Made by a program: the position numbers and the translations under genes. This document shows, piece after piece, positions 11,257-35,622 of a stretch of DNA of 36,553 bases (positions are counted from its first letter, which is position 1; the number at the start of each line of letters is the position of its first letter). The notes under the pieces are model-generated. The model did no database searches. It saw only the letters and a list, made by a program, of their open reading frames with translations, and was not told where the DNA came from. This DNA comes from Desulfobacterales bacterium (GTDB taxonomy: Bacteria > Desulfobacterota > Desulfobacteria > Desulfobacterales > JAIPEE01): NCBI GenBank assembly GCA_021737275.1, contig JAIPEE010000037.1:1-36553 (forward strand), given 5' to 3'.

Positions 11257-13206
11257 ATGTCTTCTAACGACTGGATAAATATTCATGCACTCAAAACACT
11301 GAATCGGTTATTGCCTCGTATGGAGCACATATTTCGTAACGGAATTCAGGAGGATCCGGAATCATGGTGGCAATTTAAAAGTCGGTTGGAACGAGAGTGG
11401 ATAGAGTTATTTCGATATCTGCACCAGTTATATGGGTGGCAATATGATTTTTATTATACACTTGAACAGGTGTTGCGAACCCTTGCAAAAAACTGGATAC
11501 AAAGGCCTGAAGAGCTTAAACAAATGGATCTGGAACGTGAGTCAAACCCTGAATGTTTTAACTCTGAAAATATGGTGGGCGGTGTACTTTATGTGGATCT
11601 TTTCAGTGGGAATTTAACCAAACTTAATGAACATATCTCATATTTCAAAAAACTTGGACTGACATATCTTCATCTGATGCCTATTTTCGCAGTTCCGCAT
11701 GGTGATAATGATGGCGGGTATGCTGTCAGCGATTACCGTTCCGTCAATCCTGATATCGGCACAATGGAAGAACTTTCAAAAATAGCCTCTCTTCTCAGAA
11801 AAGAAGGCATCAGTCTTGCGCTGGATTTCGTTTTTAATCACACATCAGATGAACATGCCTGGGCAAAGCAAGCCAGGTCAGGCGATCCTGAACTGGAGGC
11901 GTTTTATCATCTGTTTCCAGACAGACATGTGCCGGATCAGTATCAACGTCATTTGCGAGACATTTTTCCAACGGTGAGACGGGGCAGTTTTACATGGGTT
12001 AATGAAATTAAGAAATGGGTATGGACCACTTTTCATAGTTTTCAGTGGGATTTGAATTATAACAATCCTGAAGTTTTTCGGGCAATGGCCGAAGAAATGC
12101 TGTTTCTGGCAAATCAAGGTGTTGAAGTCTTGAGACTTGATGCGGTGGCATTTATCTGGAAACGCCTCGGAACTAATTGTGAAAATTTACCTGAAGCACA
12201 CATTCTTATCCGTGCATTTAATGCCATGGCGAGAATAGCGGCGCCTTCGCTTCTATTTAAATCCGAAGCGATTGTTCATCCGGATGAAGTAATTAAGTAT
12301 ATCGACAAAAAGGAATGCCGGCTTTCATATAATCCATTGTTAATGGCTTTAATATGGGAAGCATTGGCGTCAAGAGATGTGAGACTTCTTTCTTATACAA
12401 TGCGTCATCGGAGCAGGATTCCAAAAGGGTGTACATGGGTAAACTATTTGAGATGCCATGATGATATAGGATGGACCTTCGATGATGCGGATGCAAGGGC
12501 CGTCGGCATTTCTCCGGAGGACCATCGCCGGTTTTTGAATGATTTCTATACGGGGCGCTTTCCGGATTCATTTGCCAGGGGTGTGCCGTTTCAGTTTAAT
12601 GAGGATACACATGATATGCGCATTTCCGGTACGCTTGCTTCACTTGCCGGACTTGAAGACGCTTTAGAAAAAAATGATGATCGGCTGATAGAAATGGCTG
12701 TCAAACGTATTAATATGCTCCGCAGTATCATGCTGAGTATTGGTGGTATACCGCTCATATACCTTGGGGATGAATGGGCTATGATAAATGATTATACGTA
12801 TCTGGATGATCCGCTGAAAATTAATGACAGCCGTTGGATTCATCGCTCCAAAATGAACTGGGACAAACACAAGGATCTGGCAGATCAGGATACGATTGAA
12901 TGGCATTTTTTCAATGAGATGATCAAGCTGATTTATATCAGAAAAAAAACCCCGGCCTTTCAGAATGCCGACATGGATGTCTTTGATACAGGCAATGATC
13001 ATCTGTTTGGTTTTATACGTAAAAATAATAATAACCGGCGAGTGATGGTAATAGCGAACTTTTCTGAAAAAAAACAAAAAGTAAAATTATCTCATATGGA
13101 TTCCTGTGATATGCTGAAAAAATATCAGGATTTGATTACGGGTAATATTATTTCATGCGGCAGTGATCTTGAACTTGAACCTTATGGTTTTGTATGGTTG
13201 AGTTAG
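11257..13206 (+). CDS. Amylosucrase-like alpha-glucan synthase (GH13_4)
   Basis: A 649-aa glycoside hydrolase family 13 protein. The N-terminal helical domain is followed by a (beta/alpha)8 barrel and a C-terminal beta domain. The catalytic residues sit in the amylosucrase arrangement: nucleophile Asp295 in VLRLDAVAFIWK, acid/base Glu337 in FKSEAIVHPDEV, and transition-state Asp402 in LRCHDDIGW. All three are shifted by nine from the Asp286/Glu328/Asp393 of the Neisseria enzyme. Amylosucrase makes alpha-1,4-glucan plus fructose from sucrose; related enzymes hydrolyse or phosphorylise sucrose. No signal peptide is seen. No sucrose transporter, fructokinase or glycogen genes lie nearby. GGGGGAA precedes the ATG. 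Confidence 0.85.
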   Translation: MSSNDWINIHALKTLNRLLPRMEHIFRNGIQEDPESWWQFKSRLEREWIELFRYLHQLYGWQYDFYYTLEQVLRTLAKNWIQRPEELKQMDLERESNPECFNSENMVGGVLYVDLFSGNLTKLNEHISYFKKLGLTYLHLMPIFAVPHGDNDGGYAVSDYRSVNPDIGTMEELSKIASLLRKEGISLALDFVFNHTSDEHAWAKQARSGDPELEAFYHLFPDRHVPDQYQRHLRDIFPTVRRGSFTWVNEIKKWVWTTFHSFQWDLNYNNPEVFRAMAEEMLFLANQGVEVLRLDAVAFIWKRLGTNCENLPEAHILIRAFNAMARIAAPSLLFKSEAIVHPDEVIKYIDKKECRLSYNPLLMALIWEALASRDVRLLSYTMRHRSRIPKGCTWVNYLRCHDDIGWTFDDADARAVGISPEDHRRFLNDFYTGRFPDSFARGVPFQFNEDTHDMRISGTLASLAGLEDALEKNDDRLIEMAVKRINMLRSIMLSIGGIPLIYLGDEWAMINDYTYLDDPLKINDSRWIHRSKMNWDKHKDLADQDTIEWHFFNEMIKLIYIRKKTPAFQNADMDVFDTGNDHLFGFIRKNNNNRRVMVIANFSEKKQKVKLSHMDSCDMLKKYQDLITGNIISCGSDLELEPYGFVWLS

Positions 13207-14286: not shown

Positions 14287-15048
14287 ATGATCGCAATTTT
14301 ATCATTATTTGTGGTTGCAATGCTTTCACTGGTGGTGACAAGAATTGCAACCATGGCGCTGATGCTGACAGGTCTTTCAAGCGAAACAGCAAGATTTCAG
14401 GCACGCTCCGCATATACCGGCGTCGGTTTTACGACTTCTGAAACCGAATTGATTGTCAACCATCCCGTGAGGCGAAGAATCATCATGCTGCTCATGCTGT
14501 TGGGAAATATCGGTATTGCGACGGTGGTAGCAACATTGATTATATCGCTGATAAATACATCCGCGTCTGAAAAATGGTTATGGGATGTCACCATGCTGAT
14601 TTTGGGATTGAGCCTCCTGTTATGGATTTCAAAAAACAAATGGGTTGAACGGCGACTTAACAAACTCATTGCATGGGGGCTTCAGCGATGGACAAAACTT
14701 GAGGTGCAGGATTATATCGCCTTACTTCAGTTACAGAACGGTTACACCGTATCTGAAATGAAGGTTTCACCCAGCGACTGGCTTTCCGGAAAAATACTTC
14801 AAGAAGCGGCATTGCCTCTGGAGGGCATTCTTGTTCTTGGTATTCAGCGAATGGATGGAACCTATATCGGGACACCCCAGGCAGAAACACAAATTGTTCA
14901 AGGAGACACTCTTGTCTTATATGGCCAGATGAAAAGTATTCAGAAAATTGATCAAAGACAAAAGGGTGATGATGGAGACACCGCACGCCGTCAAGCTGTA
15001 GATGAACACAAGTCAAGGATAAAATCCTTGTATTCCAACGAAGAATAG
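14287..15048 (+). CDS. Membrane protein with C-terminal RCK_C (TrkA-C) domain
   Basis: A 253-aa protein with three hydrophobic segments (about 4-28, 64-90 and 98-115). Between the first two is a conserved pore-like stretch, ARSAYTGVGFTTSE, that recalls the filter loops of Trk-type potassium transporters. A cytosolic RCK_C domain follows (about 152-220), ending in the typical GDTLVLYGQMKSI. RCK_C domains bind ions or nucleotides and gate transport. It is too small to be a full Trk pore and may act as an oligomer or regulator. AAAGGAAAG lies upstream of the ATG. It is convergent with an operon whose RimK-type ligase also carries RCK_C. Confidence 0.75.
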   Translation: MIAILSLFVVAMLSLVVTRIATMALMLTGLSSETARFQARSAYTGVGFTTSETELIVNHPVRRRIIMLLMLLGNIGIATVVATLIISLINTSASEKWLWDVTMLILGLSLLLWISKNKWVERRLNKLIAWGLQRWTKLEVQDYIALLQLQNGYTVSEMKVSPSDWLSGKILQEAALPLEGILVLGIQRMDGTYIGTPQAETQIVQGDTLVLYGQMKSIQKIDQRQKGDDGDTARRQAVDEHKSRIKSLYSNEE

Positions 15049-15073: not shown

Positions 15074-16165
15074 TTAAACACTTTCTATTTCTTCAGGCGC
15101 TTCAACCACAAGAACATTTGATGCAAGCTCTTCCGACACCCTTTGTTCAAGGCCGTTTTCCTCGGAGCGTAGTTTTCGAAGCTTAGCCGGTTTGTATTTT
15201 TTTGGAAGCTTTCCAAGGTTACAAATCGGTTCGCCCGGACTAACAGCCGGAAGGGTGGTCATTCCGATCACTACTGCATTAAACGGCGCATAAAGTGTAC
15301 CCTGTTCATGACCAAGCAATGTCGTGTTTGTTGCCAGTGGTTGATCCTTTTCAATAATATCTCCCGGTTGAATATGAAAGTGCAGAAAACCGCCATGCTC
15401 AGCACGTATCCACTTTGATTTTTCTATGACAACTTGGTATTCAGGGCTTTCTATACTGCCGTCAAGCATGTCAAAATCACATAATACATTTTTTATACCC
15501 CGAACTGCACTTTCAACAATACCGGGTTCAACTTTCAATACTTCTCCGCCTTCCATAATAATTGTCGGGCATCCTGCAAGGCAGGCTTCACGGCGAAATG
15601 CGCCTTTGGGTCCTTTGCTGTTAATGATAATTTCAGAACCAAAAGCTTCAGCGAGTCTGCGAACCTGAGGGTTTTTTAAATCACCACGGACATTAGGATA
15701 GTTTGTTTTACGAACGGATGCAGTATGGAGATCTATTCCATAATCACTACGTGACACAATTTCACTGAAAATTGTATTGGCCATGCGGCTGGCAAGACTT
15801 CCTTTTTCTGATCCGGGAAAAGATCGATTTAAATCACGCCGATCCGGCAAGTAACGGGAATGACGATCAAATGCAAGCAGGTTCAGCACCGGAATAAGAA
15901 TGACGGATCCACGAGTCAGATGGAATGTCTCATCCTGAATTAACTGGTGAACGGCGCCGGTACCATTTATTTCATCACCGTGCAATGCAGCTGTCACAAA
16001 AAGAACAGGGCCATCTTCTTTTGCACGTTGAATGTGCATCTGCATCTTAACCGTCATGCTGCTGTAGCTCTCACTGATGACAAGGCTGACATCACGGGAT
16101 TCTCCGGCAGGGATCTCTTCTCCAAACCAATTATTGATAGATTTTCGTTCGCGGTTTTTAACCAT
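15074..16165 (-). CDS. Succinylglutamate desuccinylase/aspartoacylase-type deacylase (M14-like)
   Basis: About 363 aa, a zinc-dependent AstE/AspA-family hydrolase. Zinc ligands are His62 and Glu65 (in TAALHGDEING) and His147 (in GIDLHTAS). An Arg/Asn substrate stretch RDLNRSFPG (110-118) and the catalytic Glu205 in IIMEGGE are present. A C-terminal beta domain of about 120 residues is followed by a basic linker. Family enzymes cleave N-acyl amino acids or C-terminal residues. The chosen ATG 16165 overlaps the end of the rimK-like gene by 8 bases (coupled translation); ATG 16189 is an alternative. In the operon it probably removes, trims or recycles the product of the ligase; this is inference. 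Confidence 0.8.
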   Translation of the reverse strand: MVKNRERKSINNWFGEEIPAGESRDVSLVISESYSSMTVKMQMHIQRAKEDGPVLFVTAALHGDEINGTGAVHQLIQDETFHLTRGSVILIPVLNLLAFDRHSRYLPDRRDLNRSFPGSEKGSLASRMANTIFSEIVSRSDYGIDLHTASVRKTNYPNVRGDLKNPQVRRLAEAFGSEIIINSKGPKGAFRREACLAGCPTIIMEGGEVLKVEPGIVESAVRGIKNVLCDFDMLDGSIESPEYQVVIEKSKWIRAEHGGFLHFHIQPGDIIEKDQPLATNTTLLGHEQGTLYAPFNAVVIGMTTLPAVSPGEPICNLGKLPKKYKPAKLRKLRSEENGLEQRVSEELASNVLVVEAPEEIESV

Positions 16166-17429
16166 TAGGCCATGCACTTTCTTCTTCATCTACAGGTTTT
16201 GAAAATTCTTTTGGTTTCTCATATACTTTAATTGCTTCATCTGCCACGGGTAATTCAGGCAAATCTTTCACTTTCGGAAGTCGTTTTCGGCGAACTTTTG
16301 CAGGGATAAAATCTCTCATTAATTCAAGTTTTCCGAAACAAAGCAGTCGATCATCTGCTTCCAATTGTCTTTGAGATCGAGGGTTGGGAATAACTGTCGT
16401 ATCGCGTTTAAGGGTTAGTATGATAATATCCTTTTCACGTAATCCGGATTCCTGAATAGTTTTTCCAATGTAAATTGACCCTTCAGGAATGTAAATTTCA
16501 GCTACACCATAACCCCGGCTGACAGTCAATCTCTGACGAAGATCTATTTCCGGGAAATTAACCTGAGCGGCAATGTAGTCAATAATAGAACCGGCAATAT
16601 CGAGTTGTGTACATCCCTCAATACCTTCCAGACCGGGAGAGGAATTGACTTCCATAATTTGAGGACCGTCTTTACCCTCAAGCAGATCAACACCGGCAAC
16701 TCTGAGGCCCATTATCTGGGCGGCCCGGACAGCCGTTTCTGTATATACCTCATTAAGTATTACCGGTTCCGCCCGTCCGCCACGGTGGACATTACTACGA
16801 AATTCCTGCCCTTGGGCAATTCGACGCATGGCGCCAACCACCTGATTTCCTACAACAAATGCCCTGATATCACGACCTTTACTTTCAGCAACAAATTTCT
16901 GAATTAATACGTTTTGCTTCTGACTTTGGAGCATTTCAATGATGGCCTCTGCCGAATTAACGGATTCAGCCAAAAGTACGCCTATCCCCTGAGTTCCCTC
17001 CAGCAATTTGATGATAACAGGGGCACCGCCAACTCTTTCTATTGCCGGTAAAACATCTTTCTTGTCACGCACAAAAGTTGTTTTAGGTATGCCAATAAGG
17101 TGTCTGCTGAGTATTTGAAGGCTTCGGAGCTTATCTCTTGAGGTGGTAATGCTTGCAGCTGAGTTTGCACAGAAAATATCCATCTGTTCAAATTGGCGGA
17201 CAACAGCTGTTCCGTAATAGGTAATTGAAGCACCGATTCTTGGAAGAATGGCATCGTAAAGCGGCAGTTGTTTTTGATGATAGTAAAGGTCAGGGTTACC
17301 CTGCTCAAGGTCAATTGAAAACTTGAGTGTATTAAGAATTTTAACCTCGTGGCCTCGCTGCTCGGCAGCTTCACGAAGCCGACGTGTACTGTAGCATTTA
17401 GGGCTACATGAAAGGATCCCAAGTTTCAT
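16158..17429 (-). CDS. rimK: RimK-type ATP-grasp glutamate ligase fused to an RCK_C domain
   Basis: A 423-aa protein. Residues 1-~290 align in order with E. coli RimK (ribosomal protein S6--L-glutamate ligase): DAILPRIGASITYYGTA, the ATP-binding GTQGIGV (145-151), FRSNVHRGG, and the Mg-binding MEVNSSPGLEG (259-269). E. coli RimK ends near residue 300. Here an additional domain (about 303-375: GVAEIYIPEGSIYIGKTIQ ... LEADDRLLCFGK) has the RCK_C/TrkA-C pattern, followed by a Lys/Pro/Glu-rich tail. RimK adds glutamates to the C-terminus of S6 and makes poly-glutamate. The RCK_C domain suggests allosteric control by an ion or nucleotide. It sits six bases after the RimB-like gene and overlaps the deacylase gene. 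Confidence 0.9.
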   Translation of the reverse strand: MKLGILSCSPKCYSTRRLREAAEQRGHEVKILNTLKFSIDLEQGNPDLYYHQKQLPLYDAILPRIGASITYYGTAVVRQFEQMDIFCANSAASITTSRDKLRSLQILSRHLIGIPKTTFVRDKKDVLPAIERVGGAPVIIKLLEGTQGIGVLLAESVNSAEAIIEMLQSQKQNVLIQKFVAESKGRDIRAFVVGNQVVGAMRRIAQGQEFRSNVHRGGRAEPVILNEVYTETAVRAAQIMGLRVAGVDLLEGKDGPQIMEVNSSPGLEGIEGCTQLDIAGSIIDYIAAQVNFPEIDLRQRLTVSRGYGVAEIYIPEGSIYIGKTIQESGLREKDIIILTLKRDTTVIPNPRSQRQLEADDRLLCFGKLELMRDFIPAKVRRKRLPKVKDLPELPVADEAIKVYEKPKEFSKPVDEEESAWPNG

Positions 17430-17435
17430 ATTACC

Positions 17436-17936
17436 TCATTTCAGTTTTGATTTTTTGGAAGTTTTTAAAATTGGCTTTGTTTTTTTATTGGCGGGTTTTC
17501 CGTTATAATAAGATCGCCCTGCATCAACAAGAAAACGATGCCGAAAGGCTTCCCGACCAAGCAACATACGAAATCCCATTTCGTCCCGTCTTGCAAGAGT
17601 TAATTCAACCGGCCATGTCTGGCCGAGGATTGATATATTGGTGATGATAACCGGTCTTAATGAAGCTGTTCCGCTTGAACTGCGAATGGACCTGAATTCA
17701 AGAATCTTCGATTCCAGATTAACCGTTTTTTCCTTTTTCCGCTGAACCGGATAAATTTTGAAACGTACCCACTTTAAACCATCTTTCTCAAATACGTGCT
17801 GATCAAATGCATGAAGCGATGAAGACCTGGCACCGGTATCAACCTTTACCTTAATCATATTAATGCCAAAATCAGGTAGGCCGACCCATTCACGCCAGCC
17901 GATAGTTTGTAAAGGTGTTTTGATTTTTTTTACCAC
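17436..17936 (-). CDS. RimB-like retropepsin-type protease ('ATP-dependent zinc protease', COG4067)
   Basis: A 166-aa protein of the family formerly labelled putative ATP-dependent zinc protease. It has the aspartic-protease-like motif VKVDTGARSSSLHA (Asp33-Thr-Gly-Ala), a central RSSSGTASLRPVI stretch and MLLGREAFRHRFLVD near the end. In Pseudomonas, the RimB protein of the rimABK system trims glutamates added by RimK. A Lys-rich C-terminus follows the core. It is the first gene of a tight three-gene operon with the RimK-RCK_C ligase and the deacylase, which supports the same ligase-protease pairing. No strong ribosome site is visible before the ATG. Confidence 0.8.
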   Translation of the reverse strand: MVKKIKTPLQTIGWREWVGLPDFGINMIKVKVDTGARSSSLHAFDQHVFEKDGLKWVRFKIYPVQRKKEKTVNLESKILEFRSIRSSSGTASLRPVIITNISILGQTWPVELTLARRDEMGFRMLLGREAFRHRFLVDAGRSYYNGKPANKKTKPILKTSKKSKLK

Positions 17937-18252: not shown

Positions 18253-19380
18253 ATGTTTTCAAGCGATATGTGGCATGGGGTGACATGGCAACAGATTTTA
18301 ATTTCCGCAGTCATATTTCTGGTTGTTATCATATTTGAAAGACTGCTTCTCAAGTATATTAAAATCAAATCATCACAATTAGAAATTGAAGATACAAAAA
18401 CATCCTGGATTAATTTATTTCTGATTGCATTTTCAAGACCCATAAGTCTTATGCTTTGGGTATATGGCATTTACTGGGCCTTGTTGTCACTCGTTTCCGG
18501 TTTTGATGCAATATTATTATCAAAAATAGAAAATATTTTAGAAAACTCAGTTGATATTTTAACTGTTTTTTCCATTTTCTGGTTTTTATTCAGACTGGTT
18601 AAACTGGTGGATGTCTATTTGAGAAACTGGGCAACCAGGACTGAAGCATTAATGGATGACATTCTTGTTCCGTTGATTGGGAAATGTCTGAGATTTATAA
18701 TTGCCGTTATCGGCGGTATCATGCTTGTTCAGAACATGACGGGCATCGAGCTAAAACCGCTCATTGCATCCCTTGGCATTGGCGGTCTGGCTGTCGCATT
18801 GGCCTCAAAAGAATCAATTGCCAATTTTTTCGGAACAATTACCATACTATTTGATCAGCCTTTTCACGTTGGTGAACGAATAACGATTGATAAATATGAT
18901 GGTGTGGTTGAGTCTGTGGGGTTGAGAAGCACACGGATAAGAACACTGAGCGGTCATCTGGTAACCATTCCCAATGAAAAAGTAGTTAATTCATCTATTG
19001 AAAATGTTGCCAAACGCCCACATATAAGATGGCTGACCAATATCGGTATTACTTATGATACCCCGGTCGAAAAAGTTAGGGTTGCCGTACAAGTAATCCG
19101 TGATATACTTGAAAACCATGAAGGTATGAACAGTGAATTTCCGCCACGCGTATTTTTTAACGGATTTAATGATTACAGCCTGAACATTACCGTACTTGCA
19201 TGGTATCATCCGCCTGATTACTGGACATATCAGGCATGGCTGCAGGATACCTGTAGTGAAATCATGTATCGTTTTGCAGAAGAGGGGATTAATTTTGCAT
19301 TTCCAACTCAAACGATTCATCTGGCCAACGATGATAAACGGCAAATTAAAATGGATTTGATAAATTCTGAAAATATATAA
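18253..19380 (+). CDS. MscS family mechanosensitive channel
   Basis: A 375-aa inner-membrane channel with four to five N-terminal helices. The pore-lining helix is recognisable by its Gly/Ala-rich stretch ASLGIGGLAVALASKESIAN, followed by FFGTITILFDQPFHVGERI and the beta domain carrying GVVESVGLRSTRIRT and VTIPN. The C-terminal alpha/beta domain is complete. MscS channels release solutes on hypo-osmotic shock; some conduct specific ions. A perfect AAGGAGG precedes the ATG. CorA follows 21 bases later, so these two form an operon divergent from rimB-rimK. Confidence 0.9.
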   Translation: MFSSDMWHGVTWQQILISAVIFLVVIIFERLLLKYIKIKSSQLEIEDTKTSWINLFLIAFSRPISLMLWVYGIYWALLSLVSGFDAILLSKIENILENSVDILTVFSIFWFLFRLVKLVDVYLRNWATRTEALMDDILVPLIGKCLRFIIAVIGGIMLVQNMTGIELKPLIASLGIGGLAVALASKESIANFFGTITILFDQPFHVGERITIDKYDGVVESVGLRSTRIRTLSGHLVTIPNEKVVNSSIENVAKRPHIRWLTNIGITYDTPVEKVRVAVQVIRDILENHEGMNSEFPPRVFFNGFNDYSLNITVLAWYHPPDYWTYQAWLQDTCSEIMYRFAEEGINFAFPTQTIHLANDDKRQIKMDLINSENI

Positions 19381-19401: not shown

Positions 19402-20463
19402 GTGTTTAAATTCATAAAAAAATCATCCAAAACGCCTGGAATGCCTCCCGGTGCGTTAGTTCATGTTGGTGATAAGAAGACGGATGTGACAAATATTCAG
19501 TTGTTTGATTATGGTCAGGGTAAGTGTATTGCAAAAAATATTGATAATCTTGAAGAGATTAAAGAGTGTCATAAAACCGAATCTGTAACATGGCTTAATA
19601 TTACCGGACTGCATGATACCCGGATAATTGAACAGATAGGAAATATTTTCTCTCTTCATCCGCTTGTTTTGGAAGATATTGTTAACACCGGGCACCGTCC
19701 AAAAGTTGAAGAACACGATGACTATTTTTTTATCGTATTGAAAATGCTTTATCTTGATAAAGACAAGGCGCTTTGTTCAGAACAGGTCAGTCTTATACTT
19801 GGTGAACATTTTCTGATTACGTTTCAGGAAATAGAAGGCGACGTATTCAGTGCCGTTCGTGAAAGAATCAAGAATGGCAAGGGTCGTATAAGGAAAATGG
19901 ACTGCGATTATCTGGCTTACGCCTTAATCGACGCCATTGTTGATCACTATATCCATATCATGGGAGAAGCTGGGGATCAGATCGAAATGGTTGAACTGGA
20001 ACTTGAAACAGACCCGACCCAGCAAACCATGGAAAAACTGCACTCAATAAAACGGGAGATGCTTTATTTGAGAAAGCGGATAATGCCGGTACGGGAGATG
20101 CTTAATCTACTGATAAAAAGCGAATCGCCATTAATTCAGGAAAAAACGGTTGTTTTCTTTAGAGATGTATATGATCACATCAATCATGTAATTGATACCA
20201 TAGAAACATTCCGTGATCTTCTTTCAAGTATGCTGGATCTTTATCTGTCCATTGTCAGCAACAGAATGAACGAAGTAATGAAAGTGCTGACCATTATTGC
20301 TACCATATTTATTCCCATTACTTTTGTGGCTGGTATTTATGGCATGAATTTTGAGAATATGCCTGAGTTGAAATGGTCCTTTGGCTATTCGATGGTATGG
20401 ATAATTATAGGTGTCGTTACAGGGGTTATGTTGATATATTTCAAACGAAAAAAATGGCTTTGA
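19402..20463 (+). CDS. corA: CorA-type magnesium/cobalt channel
   Basis: A 353-aa protein with a large cytoplasmic N-terminal domain and two C-terminal transmembrane helices. The signature GMN motif (YGMNFENMP, 314-316) lies between them, and the very end is basic (KRKKWL). CorA forms pentameric Mg2+ channels. The start is GTG 19402 with AAAGGAGA upstream. It lies 21 bases after the MscS gene. No M-box riboswitch was seen, as expected for an operon-internal gene. The next gene is 500 bases away. Confidence 0.92.
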   Translation: MFKFIKKSSKTPGMPPGALVHVGDKKTDVTNIQLFDYGQGKCIAKNIDNLEEIKECHKTESVTWLNITGLHDTRIIEQIGNIFSLHPLVLEDIVNTGHRPKVEEHDDYFFIVLKMLYLDKDKALCSEQVSLILGEHFLITFQEIEGDVFSAVRERIKNGKGRIRKMDCDYLAYALIDAIVDHYIHIMGEAGDQIEMVELELETDPTQQTMEKLHSIKREMLYLRKRIMPVREMLNLLIKSESPLIQEKTVVFFRDVYDHINHVIDTIETFRDLLSSMLDLYLSIVSNRMNEVMKVLTIIATIFIPITFVAGIYGMNFENMPELKWSFGYSMVWIIIGVVTGVMLIYFKRKKWL

Positions 20464-21011: not shown

Positions 21012-22022
21012 TTGGATGACGTGCTGAAAAATATTCGAAAACAGTTTGAAAGATTTAAAAGCGGTCCGGTCCTCATCCTTGTCGCCAGTGTGGTGGTAGT
21101 GGTGGTCTTCTGGACTGCATGGTTCACCGTCCAACCGGAGGAAACGGGCATTGTACAGCGCTTCGGCAAGGTCATACGCACGGCCGGTCCGGGACTGCAT
21201 TTCAAATTTCCTTATGGTATCGAAAAGGTCCGTATGTTGCCAACGGCTCGTGTGCTCAAAGAAGAGTTCGGGTTTCGGACGGTCTCGGTTTCCACTGTTC
21301 CCGGTGAAAAGACCCGCTTTGATACGCGCGGCGCCTATAAGGATGAGTCGCTGATGCTCACCGGGGATTTGAACGTCATCGATGTTCAGTGGATAGTCCA
21401 GTATCGCATCGAAGACCCGATCCGCTACCTGTTTCAGGTCCGCGACACTTCGAAAACAATCCGCGACACTACCGAGGCGGTCATGCGCCGAGCGGTCGGA
21501 AACCGTTTGGGCAGTGATGTACTGACCACCGGACGGGTGGCGGTGGCCAGTGAAGCCAAAATCGAGATTCAGAAAATCCTTACAACCTATGAGTCCGGAG
21601 TGCGTCTGGTTACTGTCGAACTTCAGGATGTGACTCCTCCGGATACGGTTAAACCGGCCTTCAATGAAGTCAACGAGTCGCGTCAGGATAAAGAGCAAAC
21701 GATCAATAAAGCCCAGGAACAGGCCAACCGGGAAATCCCCAAAGCCCGGGGGGTGGCTACGCAAAGCATCAGCGAGGCTGAAGGTTACGCATTGGAACGC
21801 GTAAACCGGGCCAAAGGAGAGGCCACCCGTTTTGAGGCCATTTTAGGACAATACGAACAGGCGCCGCAGGTTACGCGCCGGCGGCTGTATCTGGAAGCCA
21901 TGACCGGTTTCCTGTCAGACATGAAAGGACTCTATATTGTGGATAAGGACCAGAAGGCCATGGTGCCCTGGCTCCCATTGGAATCCAGTGGGCAACCATC
22001 AGCACAAGGGAGGCAACCATGA
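21012..22022 (+). CDS. hflK: HflK-like SPFH protease modulator (start probably frameshifted)
   Basis: A 336-aa membrane-anchored SPFH/prohibitin-domain protein: one transmembrane helix (residues ~18-38), then VQPEETGIVQRFGKV opening the SPFH domain, then a long Glu/Arg/Ala-rich coiled coil (KAQEQANREIPKARG). HflK with HflC forms cages around the FtsH protease. The open frame has only TTG 21012 as start, with no ribosome site. The perfect GGAGGT and ATG 20971 lie upstream in another frame. Reading the frame upstream of the TTG gives STSGGNTPTLDDVLKNI, like normal HflK N-termini, so one base appears lost near 20976-20980. Overlaps hflC by 4 bases (ATGA). Confidence 0.8.
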   Translation: MDDVLKNIRKQFERFKSGPVLILVASVVVVVVFWTAWFTVQPEETGIVQRFGKVIRTAGPGLHFKFPYGIEKVRMLPTARVLKEEFGFRTVSVSTVPGEKTRFDTRGAYKDESLMLTGDLNVIDVQWIVQYRIEDPIRYLFQVRDTSKTIRDTTEAVMRRAVGNRLGSDVLTTGRVAVASEAKIEIQKILTTYESGVRLVTVELQDVTPPDTVKPAFNEVNESRQDKEQTINKAQEQANREIPKARGVATQSISEAEGYALERVNRAKGEATRFEAILGQYEQAPQVTRRRLYLEAMTGFLSDMKGLYIVDKDQKAMVPWLPLESSGQPSAQGRQP

Positions 22023-22987
22023 AGTTTACCTTAAAAGCAGTAATCATCGCAATAGCGATGGTGATCGTTATCGTAGTCTATGGCGGTCTATATACATTGG
22101 AAGAGGGCCTGCAGGCTATTGTCGTTCAGTTTGGCCGACCTGTTGGGGAACCGGTAACCGAGGCGGGGCTGCATATGAAACTCCCCTTTGTGCAGGAGGT
22201 CCGACGATTCGAAAAGCGTCTGCTGGTCTGGGACGGTGACCCGAACCAGGTTCCCACCAAGGGGCGCGAGTTCATCTGGGTGGATACCACCGCCCGATGG
22301 CGGATTGCCGACGCGAAAAAGTTTCTGGAGAATGTGGCCAGCGAAGAGGGGGCCCAGTCGCGCTTGAACGATATTCTCGATTCGGTGGTACGCGACCAGG
22401 TGTCAAGCAGCGAACTCGTTGAACTCGTGCGCAGCGCATCGTGGGAAGTGCCCGAGGGCGAAGCCCTGAAGGAGATACCAAAGGAGCGCGAAGAGGAGCT
22501 TAAAAGGGAGATTGCCCGCGGCAGGGAGGAGATCACCCGAACGATACTGACTGAAGCTCAGAAAATCATCCCGCAATACGGCATCGAACTGGTGGATGTG
22601 CGCATCAAGCGCCTCGACTACGTTGAAAGCGTCCGTGAAAAGGTCTATGAACGCATGATTTCCGAGCGCAAGCGCATTGCCGCGCAGTTCCGTTCCGAAG
22701 GTGAGGGACGCAGCGCCGAGATACTCGGGACAATGGAAAAAGAGCTACGCCAGATTCGCTCAACGGCTTACCGCCAAGTGCAGGAGATCCAAGGCAAAGC
22801 CGACGCTGAAGCGACGCAAATCTACGGCCAGGCGTATAATAAAAATCCGGAATTCTATGCCTTTTTGCGTACCCTTGAAAGCTACAAGGAGAAAACGAAT
22901 AAGAATTCCGTACTGATCCTCACCACGGACAGCGACTTCTATCAATATATCAAGCAGGCAAGCCCCGGAGAAAGGCGGGACCGATGA
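22019..22987 (+). CDS. hflC: HflC-like SPFH protease modulator
   Basis: A 322-aa partner of HflK. An N-terminal transmembrane helix (~6-25) is followed by the SPFH domain (GLQAIVVQFGRPVGEPV, LHMKLPFVQEVRRFEKR). The C-terminal coiled coil includes ERKRIAAQFRSEGEGRSAEI and the conserved DAEATQIYGQAYNKNPEFY, both typical of HflC. GGGAGG lies before the ATG, whose first bases overlap the hflK stop, showing tight coupling. FtsH itself is not in the window. Codon use is visibly richer in G and C than in the genes upstream of 20.5 kb. Confidence 0.92.
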   Translation: MKFTLKAVIIAIAMVIVIVVYGGLYTLEEGLQAIVVQFGRPVGEPVTEAGLHMKLPFVQEVRRFEKRLLVWDGDPNQVPTKGREFIWVDTTARWRIADAKKFLENVASEEGAQSRLNDILDSVVRDQVSSSELVELVRSASWEVPEGEALKEIPKEREEELKREIARGREEITRTILTEAQKIIPQYGIELVDVRIKRLDYVESVREKVYERMISERKRIAAQFRSEGEGRSAEILGTMEKELRQIRSTAYRQVQEIQGKADAEATQIYGQAYNKNPEFYAFLRTLESYKEKTNKNSVLILTTDSDFYQYIKQASPGERRDR

Positions 22988-31939: not shown

Positions 31940-32839
31940 TCATTTATTATCTTTTCCTAAAAGCCTTATCTCAAGAGGATTTGTCGTATCAACATGAACA
32001 TCCCGCTGAGGGAATGCAATTATCAAATTATTTTTTCTAAACAGATCATCAATTTGATACCTGAGGTCCGACTGAATAAGCCTGAGATCTGCGGGTCGCG
32101 TTATATGTGCCCAGAATTGCAACTCAAAAACCAGGGCGTTGTCTCCAAAATCATGAAAAAAGACAACCGGTGGCGGCTCTTTATGGGTTTTAGCATGATC
32201 ATTCGCTGCCTTAAGAAGAAGCTCTGTAACCTGTTTTACAGGTGATCCATAGTTAACGCCAACAACAACTTTACCCCTGACATCACTATCTGACAGTGTC
32301 CAGTTGATGACATGCTGTTCAAGAAAATAGCTGTTTGGAACAAGTATATCAATTCCATCTCGTCTGCGAATCCGGACACAACGGTTGCCGATTTCTTCAA
32401 CACGCCCCTCCTGACCGGACACCTCGATAATATCTCCCCGCCGAATCGGCCTTTCAATCATGAGAATCAAGCTGGATATCAGATTGTTAAAAAGATTTTG
32501 TGCACCAAACCCGATACCAATTGCAATGGCGCCGCCCATAACTGTGAAGATAGTGCTGGGGATTCCGGCCATTGGCAGAGCAATTAGAACGACTATTATA
32601 ATAACCAGATAATAAGAAAGTCTTTGAATAAAATAAGCTGTGTTTTGATCAAATTTTTCAATCTTTTCTAAACGGCGGGATACCAACACCGTAATCCGTT
32701 TACCGATCAGAATACCGATCAGAATGATCAGCATGGCAAGCACAATCTGGTTTAATTGGATTTCATTACCGCCGCTTGTAAAAAGTGTTATACGCCATAT
32801 CTGATTTAGCTTGGAAAAAATAGTGTTAACCGTATCCAC
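31940..32839 (-). CDS. MscS family mechanosensitive channel (second copy)
   Basis: A 299-aa compact MscS protein with three helices. The pore helix is Gly/Ala-rich (VMGGAIAIGIGFGAQNLFNN), followed by LISSLILMIERPIRRGDIIEV and the beta-domain motif GRVEEIGNRCVRIRRRDG, then ILVPNSYF. The C-terminal domain is complete. It differs clearly in sequence from the MscS gene at 18.3 kb, which is longer, so it is a separate subfamily. It lies 41 bases after the P-type ATPase gene and 40 before the FNT gene. Confidence 0.9.
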   Translation of the reverse strand: MDTVNTIFSKLNQIWRITLFTSGGNEIQLNQIVLAMLIILIGILIGKRITVLVSRRLEKIEKFDQNTAYFIQRLSYYLVIIIVVLIALPMAGIPSTIFTVMGGAIAIGIGFGAQNLFNNLISSLILMIERPIRRGDIIEVSGQEGRVEEIGNRCVRIRRRDGIDILVPNSYFLEQHVINWTLSDSDVRGKVVVGVNYGSPVKQVTELLLKAANDHAKTHKEPPPVVFFHDFGDNALVFELQFWAHITRPADLRLIQSDLRYQIDDLFRKNNLIIAFPQRDVHVDTTNPLEIRLLGKDNK

Positions 32840-32880
32840 AATTCCCCTCTAATAAATTTGGTTTTATTCGTTAATATCAG

Positions 32881-35622
32881 TTAATCGGATTTTTGATCTT
32901 TTCGATGGATGAAATATTTTTCAATTTCGACTAAAAACAGCAATAGTGGGGTAATAAGAAATATTCCTGTCCACGACTTCCAGGCTATACCCGTTGTTCC
33001 AAAAAGGGTTTGCATAAACGGCAAATAGGTAAATATTAATTGAAAGATAACCACTATGCCAACAGCGCCAACGACATAACCGTTTCCGAAAAGCCCTTCA
33101 CGATTTAATACTGATTCTTTCATATATCGTGTGTTAAAAAGAAAAAAGATTTCAAACATCACCAGCGTATTAACGGCTACTGTACGTGCCGTTTCAATGG
33201 ATGCGCCATGAACCCTTTCCCAGGTAAATAATCCAAATGTTCCAACAATAAGGATTAACGAAACAAAACAGATCCGCCAAATAAGAAACCCGGTTAAAAT
33301 CGGTTCATCGGAATTCCTGGGCGGCCTTTTCATTACATTTGATTCGGCAGGTTCAAAAGCAAGAGATAAAGCAAGTGTTACTGCGGTTATCATATTAACC
33401 CAGAGAATCTGGACTGGCGTTATCGGTAGCATTCGGCCAAACAATATAGCGGCTACAATAATTCCGGCTTCACCAATATTTGTAGGTAATATAAACATTA
33501 CCGCTTTTTTGATATTCTCGTATACGGTTCTTCCTTCCTCAACGGCACTTGCAATTGAAGCAAAGTTATCATCAGCAAGAACCATTTCCGATACATCTTT
33601 TGCCGCCTCAGTGCCTTTAATTCCCATTGCCACACCGATATCCGCCCGTTTTAATGCCGGCGCATCATTTACGCCATCTCCTGTCATGGCGACAACTTCA
33701 CCATTTGCCTGAAGTACTTGAACCAGTCGCAACTTGTTTTCAGGACTCACACGAGCAAAAACATCCACCTGTTTAACAATTTCCCGGAGCCGGTCATCAT
33801 TCAACCCATCAAGTTCCTGACCGGTAACAGCTAAAACTCCATCACCAATCCCCATCTGGACGCTTATCGCTCTTGCAGTCAACACGTGGTCTCCGGTAAT
33901 CATTTTGACGCTTATTCCGGCATTTTTACATTCACGTATCGCTTTGATAGCAGCGCCTCTCGGCGGATCAATAATTCCGACAAGGCCGATCAAGGTCAGG
34001 CCATCCTTGACATCATCAATTGTTATATTATTAGAATCAGAAGCAACATCTTTTTTTGCAATTGCCAACGGACGCTGTCCGGTGCTTGCAATATGCCGGA
34101 TTTGGCTTTCCCAGAAATCCTTGTCCAAAGAAGATTTTTCGCCAAGATCAAGTTGATGGCTACATGATTTCAGAATCTGTTCTGGCGCACCCTTTACATA
34201 TATGAGCTTTCCTTTTGGGCCGGCATTATGCAAAGTAGCCATTAATCTATGTTCTGACTCAAAAGGTAACGTATCTATTCGAGGTTTTTCTGATTGCTCA
34301 ACCGATTGATTCAGACCCGCTTTACGTCCAAGAACCAGCATCGCTGCTTCGGTCGGGTCTCCATGTATCTCCCATTTATCACCTGATCCTTCAAGCGATG
34401 AATCATTGCATAATGAACCTGCACGGGCCAGCTCGAGAAGATCAGGAAATTTGTTGCAGGCAACCCCACCACCTCCGATAAGATAGCAGGAAAAAATCTT
34501 CTCCTTTACAGCAAATTCACCTTTTGGATTGTAACCTGCACCACTGACATCAAACACTTCTGAAGCTGTCACAACTGTTTTGACTGTCATTTCATTACGT
34601 GTTAAAGTTCCTGTTTTATCTGAACAGATAACAGTAACAGAACCTAATGTTTCTACTGAAGGAAGCCGTCGGATGATGACATTTCGTTTAGCCATTCTCT
34701 GAACACCGACCGCAAGAGTGATTGATAAGATTGCAGGCAGTCCTTCAGGTATAGCAGCAACTGCCAGGCCAACAGCCGCCATGAACATATCGCTGAATTT
34801 GTAATTTCTAACAAATATACCGAAAACAAAAGTTACGGCCGCGATGATGCCGATCGCAACGGACAGAAAACGTCCGAACTCAGACATTTTTTGGAGCAGT
34901 TTTGTTGTGACTGTCGGTGCAGAGGAAATCAAGCGGCTGATTTTTCCAAGTTCGGTATGGTCCCCGGTTGACACAACGATCCCTGTTGCCTGGCCGTATG
35001 TTACCATTGTACCTGAATAAGCCATACAGGTCCTATCCCCAATGGCTTTCGTTTCATCAACACCGGCAACAGATTTCTCTACTGGAAGTGATTCGCCGGT
35101 TAAAGAAGCTTCATCAATTCTGAGATTTTTTGATTTTATCAAACGGAGATCTGCAGGCACTTTGTCCCCGGACTGCAAAAAAACAATATCGCCTGGAACT
35201 AATTGTTCAGAAGACATGCCGATACGCTTGTTATCTCTGTAGACTGAAGCTTGAAGAGATAACATGTTTCGAATAGCGTCGAGCGCTTTTTCAGCTTTTC
35301 CTTCCTGGATGAAACCAATTAATGAATTTAACAGAATGACACCTAAAATCACGCCTGAATCTACCCAATGTTCAAATAGTGCCGTCAATAATGCAGAGCC
35401 TAAAAGCACATAAATCAGAGTATTATGAAACTGAGAAAAAAAGAGTATCCATCTGCTGCGTATCTTTGGCGGGGTTAATCTGTTATGGCCGAATTTAGAG
35501 AGTCTGTCATTTGCGTCTTTCTGAGAAAGCCCTTTATCATCGGTTTTTAAATGATAATAGATTTTATCAATTTCGACAGTATGCCAGGGTACTTCCTCTA
35601 AATTATTCCAATCCTGATTCAT
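32881..35622 (-). CDS. P-type cation-transporting ATPase (P2 class)
   Basis: A 913-aa pump with an N-terminal cation-ATPase domain, TGES actuator motif (175-178), PEGL in helix 4 (292-295), phosphorylated Asp335 in DKTGTLT, KGAPE nucleotide site (477-481), TGDGVNDAP hinge (647-655) and ten helices. It resembles SERCA/PMR1-type calcium pumps. In helix 6, however, the calcium-binding Asp following WVN-x2-T is Ala747 (WVNMITAV), while Asn743 and helix-5 Glu718 remain. The ion may thus not be Ca2+; a monovalent ion or Mg is possible. It lies 13 bases downstream of the exported-protein gene. Confidence 0.9.
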   Translation of the reverse strand: MNQDWNNLEEVPWHTVEIDKIYYHLKTDDKGLSQKDANDRLSKFGHNRLTPPKIRSRWILFFSQFHNTLIYVLLGSALLTALFEHWVDSGVILGVILLNSLIGFIQEGKAEKALDAIRNMLSLQASVYRDNKRIGMSSEQLVPGDIVFLQSGDKVPADLRLIKSKNLRIDEASLTGESLPVEKSVAGVDETKAIGDRTCMAYSGTMVTYGQATGIVVSTGDHTELGKISRLISSAPTVTTKLLQKMSEFGRFLSVAIGIIAAVTFVFGIFVRNYKFSDMFMAAVGLAVAAIPEGLPAILSITLAVGVQRMAKRNVIIRRLPSVETLGSVTVICSDKTGTLTRNEMTVKTVVTASEVFDVSGAGYNPKGEFAVKEKIFSCYLIGGGGVACNKFPDLLELARAGSLCNDSSLEGSGDKWEIHGDPTEAAMLVLGRKAGLNQSVEQSEKPRIDTLPFESEHRLMATLHNAGPKGKLIYVKGAPEQILKSCSHQLDLGEKSSLDKDFWESQIRHIASTGQRPLAIAKKDVASDSNNITIDDVKDGLTLIGLVGIIDPPRGAAIKAIRECKNAGISVKMITGDHVLTARAISVQMGIGDGVLAVTGQELDGLNDDRLREIVKQVDVFARVSPENKLRLVQVLQANGEVVAMTGDGVNDAPALKRADIGVAMGIKGTEAAKDVSEMVLADDNFASIASAVEEGRTVYENIKKAVMFILPTNIGEAGIIVAAILFGRMLPITPVQILWVNMITAVTLALSLAFEPAESNVMKRPPRNSDEPILTGFLIWRICFVSLILIVGTFGLFTWERVHGASIETARTVAVNTLVMFEIFFLFNTRYMKESVLNREGLFGNGYVVGAVGIVVIFQLIFTYLPFMQTLFGTTGIAWKSWTGIFLITPLLLFLVEIEKYFIHRKDQKSD

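Follow-up and report, generated by a model that had tools for sequence, protein, structure and literature searches.

A RimK-type glutamate ligase fused to an RCK_C domain and its association with magnesium transport and mechanosensitive channel genes

The stretch of DNA analysed here, 36,553 nucleotides of contig JAIPEE010000037.1 from a Desulfobacterales bacterium (assembly GCA_021737275.1) and referred to as the window, contains on its minus strand (16158..17429) a gene in which a RimK-type ligase is joined to a C-terminal RCK_C (TrkA_C) domain. The gene codes for 423 amino acids and was identified by Pfam and NCBIfam matches and by 80 full-length relatives. Fused proteins of this kind fall into a single clade, have a conserved active site and are associated with genes for CorA, MgtE and MscS proteins. 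The RCK_C-bearing RimK of this one widely transferred clade would most likely be an ion- or nucleotide-gated glutamate ligase of magnesium or osmotic adaptation, in which the gating is predicted.

The fused protein and its operon partners

The RimK core is complete, as the initial annotation had proposed, and its glutamate-ligase part is conserved. The Rimk_N preATP-grasp domain (residues 1-94; 17148..17429, minus strand like all parts of this gene) matches PF18030 with an E value of 2e-38, and the RimK ATP-grasp domain (residues 98-286; 16572..17138) matches PF08443 with an E value of 1e-58, both above cut-off. TIGR00768 was passed with 253.5 bits (cut-off 143.4). For NF007764, the NCBIfam S6--L-glutamate ligase equivalog with a cut-off of 331, the window protein scores 319.6 bits and two of its relatives score 326.7 (L106) and 334.1 (L049). 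Residues 1-287 align without a gap to the solved Pseudomonas RimK. It has been reported that seven residues contact polyglutamate in P. aeruginosa RimK, namely S7, R8, S14, R64, S68, R189 and N262 (PMC10092738, available part). Five of these (S7, S14, R64, R189 and N262) are invariant in all 81 fused proteins and S68 is kept in 80; R211, H215 and R216 are invariant as well. On comparison with 18 RimK proteins lacking the RCK_C domain (RCK-less RimK), 74 positions were found to be invariant and shared, and six showed a clean switch, E178K and E229Y among them. From these alignments the fusion protein would very probably be an alpha-glutamate ligase whose acceptor site is slightly altered. RimK is already an allosteric enzyme, because cyclic di-GMP (c-di-GMP), and not cyclic di-AMP (c-di-AMP), increases the ATPase activity of the Pseudomonas protein (PMC10092738, available part).

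The presence of an RCK_C domain at the C-terminus, which had been read from the sequence in the initial annotation, was confirmed by profile and fold. Residues 309-373 (16311..16505) match TrkA_C (PF02080) with 43.8 bits and an E value of 2.4e-11, the cut-off being 27 bits. A profile built from 20 RCK_C regions found the solved structures of MthK (E 7e-4), BusR (0.003), KtrA (0.004), KtrC (0.01) and KhtT (0.03). The model of residues 293-381 alone had a predicted local distance difference test score (pLDDT) of 81; its best Foldseek match was MthK (E 9.8e-6), with a Z score of 11.1 for both MthK and KhtT, and the KtrA RCK fold was also matched. Eight residues of the domain (P348, N349, P350, D360, L363, C364, F365 and G366) are the same in all, or all but one, of the 81 aligned rows. 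Mean identity to the window residue over these rows is 0.71 for the RCK_C domain and 0.92 for the linker before it (residues 287-308; 16506..16571), the highest value among the five stretches compared. The tail (residues 374-423; 16161..16310) is basic first and variable after, as judged from the conservation profile. The TrkA_N Rossmann domain expected of a potassium channel or transporter subunit of the TrkA or KtrA kind is absent from the window protein among Pfam matches up to E 1.

The fused gene lies in a tight minus-strand operon between two hydrolase genes, and the open reading frames and the operon put forward in the initial annotation were found as described. The upstream gene (17436..17936, minus strand, 166 amino acids, GTG start) is separated from it by 6 bases (17430-17435) and matches the retropepsin family PF05618 (E 5.4e-36). 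Its DTG motif at residues 33-35 keeps D33 and G35 in at least 97% of 44 aligned rows and T34 in 70-80%, and the family match together with the conserved catalytic aspartate agrees with the retropepsin identity assigned to it earlier. The protein is called RimB-like since its score with the NCBIfam RimB equivalog, 117.8 bits, is below the cut-off of 200. The downstream gene (15074..16165, minus strand) codes for an AstE/AspA-type hydrolase, with 117.6 bits for AstE_AspA_cat (PF24827; E 7e-34, cut-off 25). Its longest open reading frame is 15074-16189, so that the overlap with the fused gene is 8 bases from the ATG at 16165 and 32 bases from that at 16189. An overlap of exactly 8 bases was found again in 8 of 38 adjacent pairs of relatives, and hence the start at 16165, on which the 8-base overlap of the initial annotation depends, is the likelier one. 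The motifs HGDE, DLNRSFPG and DLHT are conserved over 39 rows; HGDE and DLHT are presumably the zinc-ligand motifs. The nearest NCBIfam equivalogs are DoeB (72.8 bits, cut-off 402.7) and aspartoacylase (25.9 bits, cut-off 180), and the hydrolase was not taken for either of these proper, both cut-offs being missed by far.

One clade in many phyla

To find relatives, 84,980 genomes were scanned with peptide patterns from the window protein. The scan gave 198 relatives, the best 80 of which were kept; since the patterns come from the window protein, close relatives are over-represented and the sample does not tell how common fusions are among RimK proteins. Each of these 80 aligns to residues 1 to at least 390 of the query, with 75-87% identity. 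The fusion is not a chance event, because every one of the 80 is full length with a conserved RCK_C domain. The relatives cover nine or more phyla, which are by record title (many records being metagenome-assembled) Planctomycetota 34, Thermodesulfobacteriota 16, Pseudomonadota 13, Myxococcota 3 (doubtful, as these are titled only 'Deltaproteobacteria bacterium'), Fidelibacterota 3, Chloroflexota 2, Spirochaetota 2, Acidobacteriota, Rhodothermota and Deferribacterota 1 each, and unassigned 4.

In a tree built from RimK cores, 70 of them fused and 30 RCK-less, all fused proteins stand on one side of one branch (SH-aLRT, the Shimodaira-Hasegawa-like approximate likelihood ratio test, 98); the tree comes from a quick search and some RCK-less rows are long branches. 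Phyla are partly intermixed within the fused clade, a pattern in keeping with horizontal transfer. A divergent RimK-RCK_C protein with 67% identity (L183), which turned up by a route other than the pattern scan, adjoins an AstE-type gene and branches off first within the fused clade; further divergent fusions like it probably exist. Close to the lineage of the window genome the fusion is rare: none was found in 57 relatives (its own genome aside), nor at E<=1e-60 in the other 394 genomes of a draw by phylum, a limit that diverged fusions could escape. RCK-less RimK was found at the same limit in 4 of the 57 relatives and in 1 phylum genome. On plasmids there was no fusion, none of 118 matching records covering 80% of the query. 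In at least 8 of 41 fusion genomes there is, in addition, a RimK without RCK_C that belongs to the ordinary clade, which would fit the fusion being a second, specialised enzyme; at least four of the 41 (G457, G472, G474 and G478) have two fused copies. In three fusion genomes (L182, L184 and L185) RimK proteins of 463-467 amino acids group with a 480-residue protein of Persicobacter (L173); by length alone they are RimBK-hybrid-like.

The gene order is partly conserved. A RimB gene lies directly upstream of the fusion in 43 of the 80 loci and an AstE-type gene directly downstream in 38 (3 more being cut by a contig end in each case), and both are adjacent in 28. The three-gene order suggested by the initial annotation therefore recurs across phyla, the partners not being obligatory (see below).

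Ion-transport genes around the fusion

In the window the operon is flanked on one side by a gene for an MscS-type mechanosensitive channel (18253..19380, plus strand, PF00924) and a gene for a CorA-type Mg2+ transporter (19402..20463, plus strand, PF01544), the draft genome having no other CorA match. On the other side, convergent to the operon, lies a gene for a membrane protein with an RCK_C domain of its own (14287..15048, plus strand, TrkA_C 35.1 bits). Relatives of this protein with 55-57% identity were found near the fusion at L050 and L078, and further matches at E<=1e-5 at L060 and L107, giving 4 of 80 loci. Among all 80 loci, clusters of homologues of MscS are present in 16, of CorA in 9 and of MgtE in 7; each of the remaining genes of the window that were tested was found again at two loci at most, one of the queries being wrongly sliced.

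Neighbour statistics were obtained for 41 genomes with 45 fused genes and 210.8 Mb within a radius of 10 kb. The 45 places are the 41 from the window and the scanned loci, L183, and three more with a confirmed RCK_C motif (G472:C90, G474:C268 and G478:C15). By Poisson tests, whose P values treat the genomes as independent, some of them being close kin, CorA is found at this distance from the fusion in 13 genomes (0.23 expected, P 5e-19), and MgtE in 6 (0.29 expected, P 6e-7). MscS occurs at 9 of 41 fusion loci against 0.53 expected (P 5e-9), a comparison that should be conservative as genes near the fusion were counted by BLAST with the window protein and the background by PF00924. TrkH, taken as a control, was found in 1 genome against 0.28 (P 0.24). 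The rows used were 53 of 53 for CorA, 67 of 70 for MgtE (three below the family cut-off were dropped) and 65 of 74 for TrkH (nine were dropped, nearly all second fragments of genes already counted). The 13 genomes with CorA amount to about nine or ten lineages as judged by eye. Potassium uptake was rejected as the context, TrkH not being enriched while CorA, MgtE and MscS are, and the potassium connection drawn in the initial annotation finds no counterpart in these neighbours. What surrounds the fusion speaks for Mg2+ transport and for mechanosensitive release rather than for K+ uptake. It should be noted that the fusion of G471 and an RCK-less RimK of G477 lie near a TrkH gene.

RCK-less RimK genes can have similar company. 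An operon RimB-RimK-AstE-CorA-MscS on one strand is present in two genomes, and RimK-AstE-RimB-MgtE-CorA-MscS-Usp occurs on a Vibrio europaeus plasmid. MscS and MgtE genes adjoin an RCK-less RimB-RimK-AstE set in Salinivibrio, and a ZntB-type transporter gene adjoins RimK in Phaeobacter. Among eight RCK-less RimK copies of fusion genomes, CorA was within 10 kb of 3, MgtE of 0 and TrkH of 1. In Acaryochloris the trio is accompanied by a cation:proton antiporter gene, without CorA, MgtE or MscS, and in Leisingera and Allocoleopsis RimK is present without the trio and without ion-gene company. BLAST found no ion genes near RimK in plasmid regions of Photobacterium (L169, a trio) and Persicobacter (L173, RimK alone). 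The ion link thus belongs to a good part of RimK operons, the fusion being the form in which the link may be built into the enzyme.

Some other genes were observed in these surroundings. The window contains a second MscS gene (PF00924), two in total, which lies together with an adjoining gene for a Ca2+-type P-ATPase (named by reading) at 31940-35622. An amylosucrase-like glycoside hydrolase gene (11257-13206; named by reading) precedes a cation-efflux gene and is perhaps one more stress-type gene of the same stretch. An HflK/HflC-like pair (21012-22987) has 42-44% identity to an annotated pair (L157:2203-4286) that lies next to a RimK without RCK_C on a conjugative plasmid of Leisingera. A transglutaminase-like protein is encoded near the fusion in five loci of three phyla (L112:7295-8086, L119, L122, L060 and L123), the one at L112 scoring 85 bits with Transglut_core.

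Possible role in ionic adaptation

Our data point to an RCK_C-gated RimK glutamate ligase which would adapt cells to shifts in Mg2+ or osmolarity, a proposal to which we give a probability of about one half and in which ligand binding, gating, substrate and hydrolase action are predicted. A RimK-type ATP-grasp alpha-L-glutamate ligase would have gained the C-terminal RCK_C domain, once as far as sampled, and the fusion would then have spread between phyla, often together with RimB and the AstE/AspA-type hydrolase. The RCK_C domains may pair across the RimK oligomer and bind an ion or nucleotide in the cytoplasm, the level of which reflects the osmotic or divalent-cation state. Binding would open or close the ATP-grasp cleft, and the state of the cleft would set the amount of alpha-glutamate on a protein C-terminus (S6 or another) or in free poly-alpha-glutamate. 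RimB could cleave these chains internally and the M14-like hydrolase could take residues or acyl groups off their ends, the set thus acting in adaptation to Mg2+ or osmotic shifts. A divalent cation is possible as ligand, the closest solved relatives being the Ca2+-gated MthK RCK domains. In a bolder and tentative version, which is rather less probable, RCK_C would directly sense either a divalent cation or the balance of K+ and Mg2+ and thereby set how long glutamate tails become, be it on the ribosome or within a pool of free polyanion. Translation or cation buffering could then be under the control of ionic state through a reversible covalent mark of one transferable operon. K05844 is presumably the KEGG entry for rimK. 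It is among the glutamate-modification genes that are commoner in brackish than in marine genomes (PMC10219603, available part), which is in favour of the main proposal.

Several observations weigh against the proposal of a gated ligase. The polyglutamate contact R8 is cysteine in 55 of the 81 proteins (the window included), arginine in 11 and threonine in 9, and the full-length AlphaFold model, with a mean pLDDT of 68.7, is too weak for domain packing. The trio is common and not obligatory, because neither RimB nor AstE is adjacent in 23 of the 80 loci, 11 of these being Pseudomonadota, where adjacency is rare (RimB 2 of 13, AstE 1 of 13); the fusion persists without it. CorA is not within 10 kb of the fusion in 28 of the 41 genomes, and kinship among genomes bears on the Poisson tests. 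As ion genes also accompany RCK-less RimK, such company alone is no proof of RCK_C as a sensor, and among RCK-less genes the company is itself partial, several plasmid loci being without it. Lastly, S6 tails do not track the fusion. The last residue of S6 is glutamate in 14, aspartate in 13 and another in 13 of 40 fusion genomes (without L168, an S6 copy truncated at a contig end); it is glutamate in 15 of 30 relatives, which were taken by best score from the genomes in which S6 was matched (55 of 58, counting that of the window) and are not a random draw. Of these 30, 27 are without a close RimK and three (G013, G055 and G057) have an RCK-less one. S6 of three fusion genomes (L150-L152) has no long tail. 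The S6 tail was thus dropped as a substrate marker, 14 of 40 against 15 of 30 giving no signal either way. The RCK-less RimK of fusion genomes could be the enzyme that takes S6.

Other explanations have to be considered for the domain and for the operon. The RCK_C domain could bind no ligand and serve just for oligomerisation or docking, in which case the enzyme would behave as an ordinary RimK. We regard this as unlikely: the linker is more conserved than the domain, which speaks for such a role, but the eight nearly invariant RCK_C residues seem beyond the need of docking. That RimK is tetrameric without RCK_C (PMC10092738, available part) can be read both ways. It is quite improbable that the domain is a c-di-AMP receptor, even though fold matches of the RCK_C model include the c-di-AMP-bound RCK_C domains of KtrA, KhtT and BusR, and a DAC domain was found in 33 of 41 fusion genomes. 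In the other 8 of these 41, which include all 6 Gammaproteobacteria and the complete Desulfoluna limicola chromosome, no DAC domain was found although their RCK_C domains keep the common core residues. This distribution rules out c-di-AMP as a universal ligand, so that one candidate of the initial annotation falls away as a general one. The lack of stimulation of Pseudomonas RimK by c-di-AMP, mentioned above, speaks in the same direction, though that enzyme has no RCK_C.

N-acetylaspartylglutamate synthase is a known enzyme which is RimK-like, and it counts in favour of a small osmolyte as the product. The operon might build and degrade, for example, an N-acyl-glutamyl peptide, with RimK joining, the AspA/DoeB-like hydrolase deacylating and RimB clearing longer chains. 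The nearest equivalogs of the hydrolase, both far under cut-off, and the S6 tails fit such a path, which is still distinctly unlikely. The available text of PMC11957791 reports that RimB trims polyglutamylated S6, stimulates polyglutamate synthesis and acts on glutamate runs, five being sufficient, which is odd for a dipeptide path. Moreover an acetyltransferase-like gene (by reading) is just one of the 45 commonest neighbour clusters, with 2 loci (L046 and L054).

The gated-ligase proposal matters because a sensor joined to the enzyme by nature tells what kind of signal is involved, and the neighbouring CorA, MgtE and MscS genes tell which physiology it serves. Inputs to RimK reported in Pseudomonas are c-di-GMP, RimA and RimB (available parts of the sources). 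Loss of Mg2+ is reported to limit translation in osmotic shock (PMC8844918, available part), so that an ion-gated ribosome-modifying enzyme, if true, would connect the Mg2+ or osmotic state with translation. In the literature searched, with most subscription papers outside the search, no paper was found with both RimK and TrkA-C. RimK and RCK occurred together just in a salinity survey whose main text is without RCK, and no title or abstract among the matches listed dealt with the fusion or the ion neighbours of the operon. The words RCK, TrkA, mechanosensitive, aspartoacylase and desuccinylase are absent from the available text of PMC11957791, and RCK, TrkA, CorA and mechanosensitive from that of PMC10092738. 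For this literature the RCK_C-RimK fusion is new, as the initial annotation had supposed. The E. coli rimK gene was reportedly described in 1989, and the 2009 amidoligase survey of Iyer and colleagues may mention such hydrolases as RimK neighbours; novelty of the trio is not claimed, because that survey may cover it and few subscription papers could be searched.

The system can be compared with several known ones. Like the Pseudomonas rimABK system (PMC11957791 and PMC10092738, available parts) it has a RimK core with six of the seven polyglutamate contacts, a RimB-like gene that is often adjacent and a scattered distribution. It differs in the C-terminal RCK_C domain and the cation channel neighbours, and in having an AstE-type hydrolase where some Pseudomonas have the RimA phosphodiesterase. 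PMC11957791, which in its available part deals with RimB action, free polyglutamate and scattered inheritance, also describes a RimBK hybrid of Desulfotalea psychrophila, Flavobacteriales and Rhodobacterales. There too RimK is fused to a partner domain, but the partner is RimB, whereas the window protein has RCK_C and RimB is a separate gene. RloABC of Pseudomonas aeruginosa also combines a retropepsin with an ATP-grasp protein (RloC, 24% identity to RimK) and has an osmotic phenotype; in contrast to the present system, its proteases are secreted and its operon has a transglutaminase-like membrane protein (PMC12239564, available part). As in BusR, a C-terminal RCK_C would gate another domain, the gating in the fusion being predicted, and as in BusR and KhtT/KtrA the context is osmotic or ionic. 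Unlike in those systems, the part linked to RCK_C is a peptide ligase, and not one for DNA binding or ion transport.

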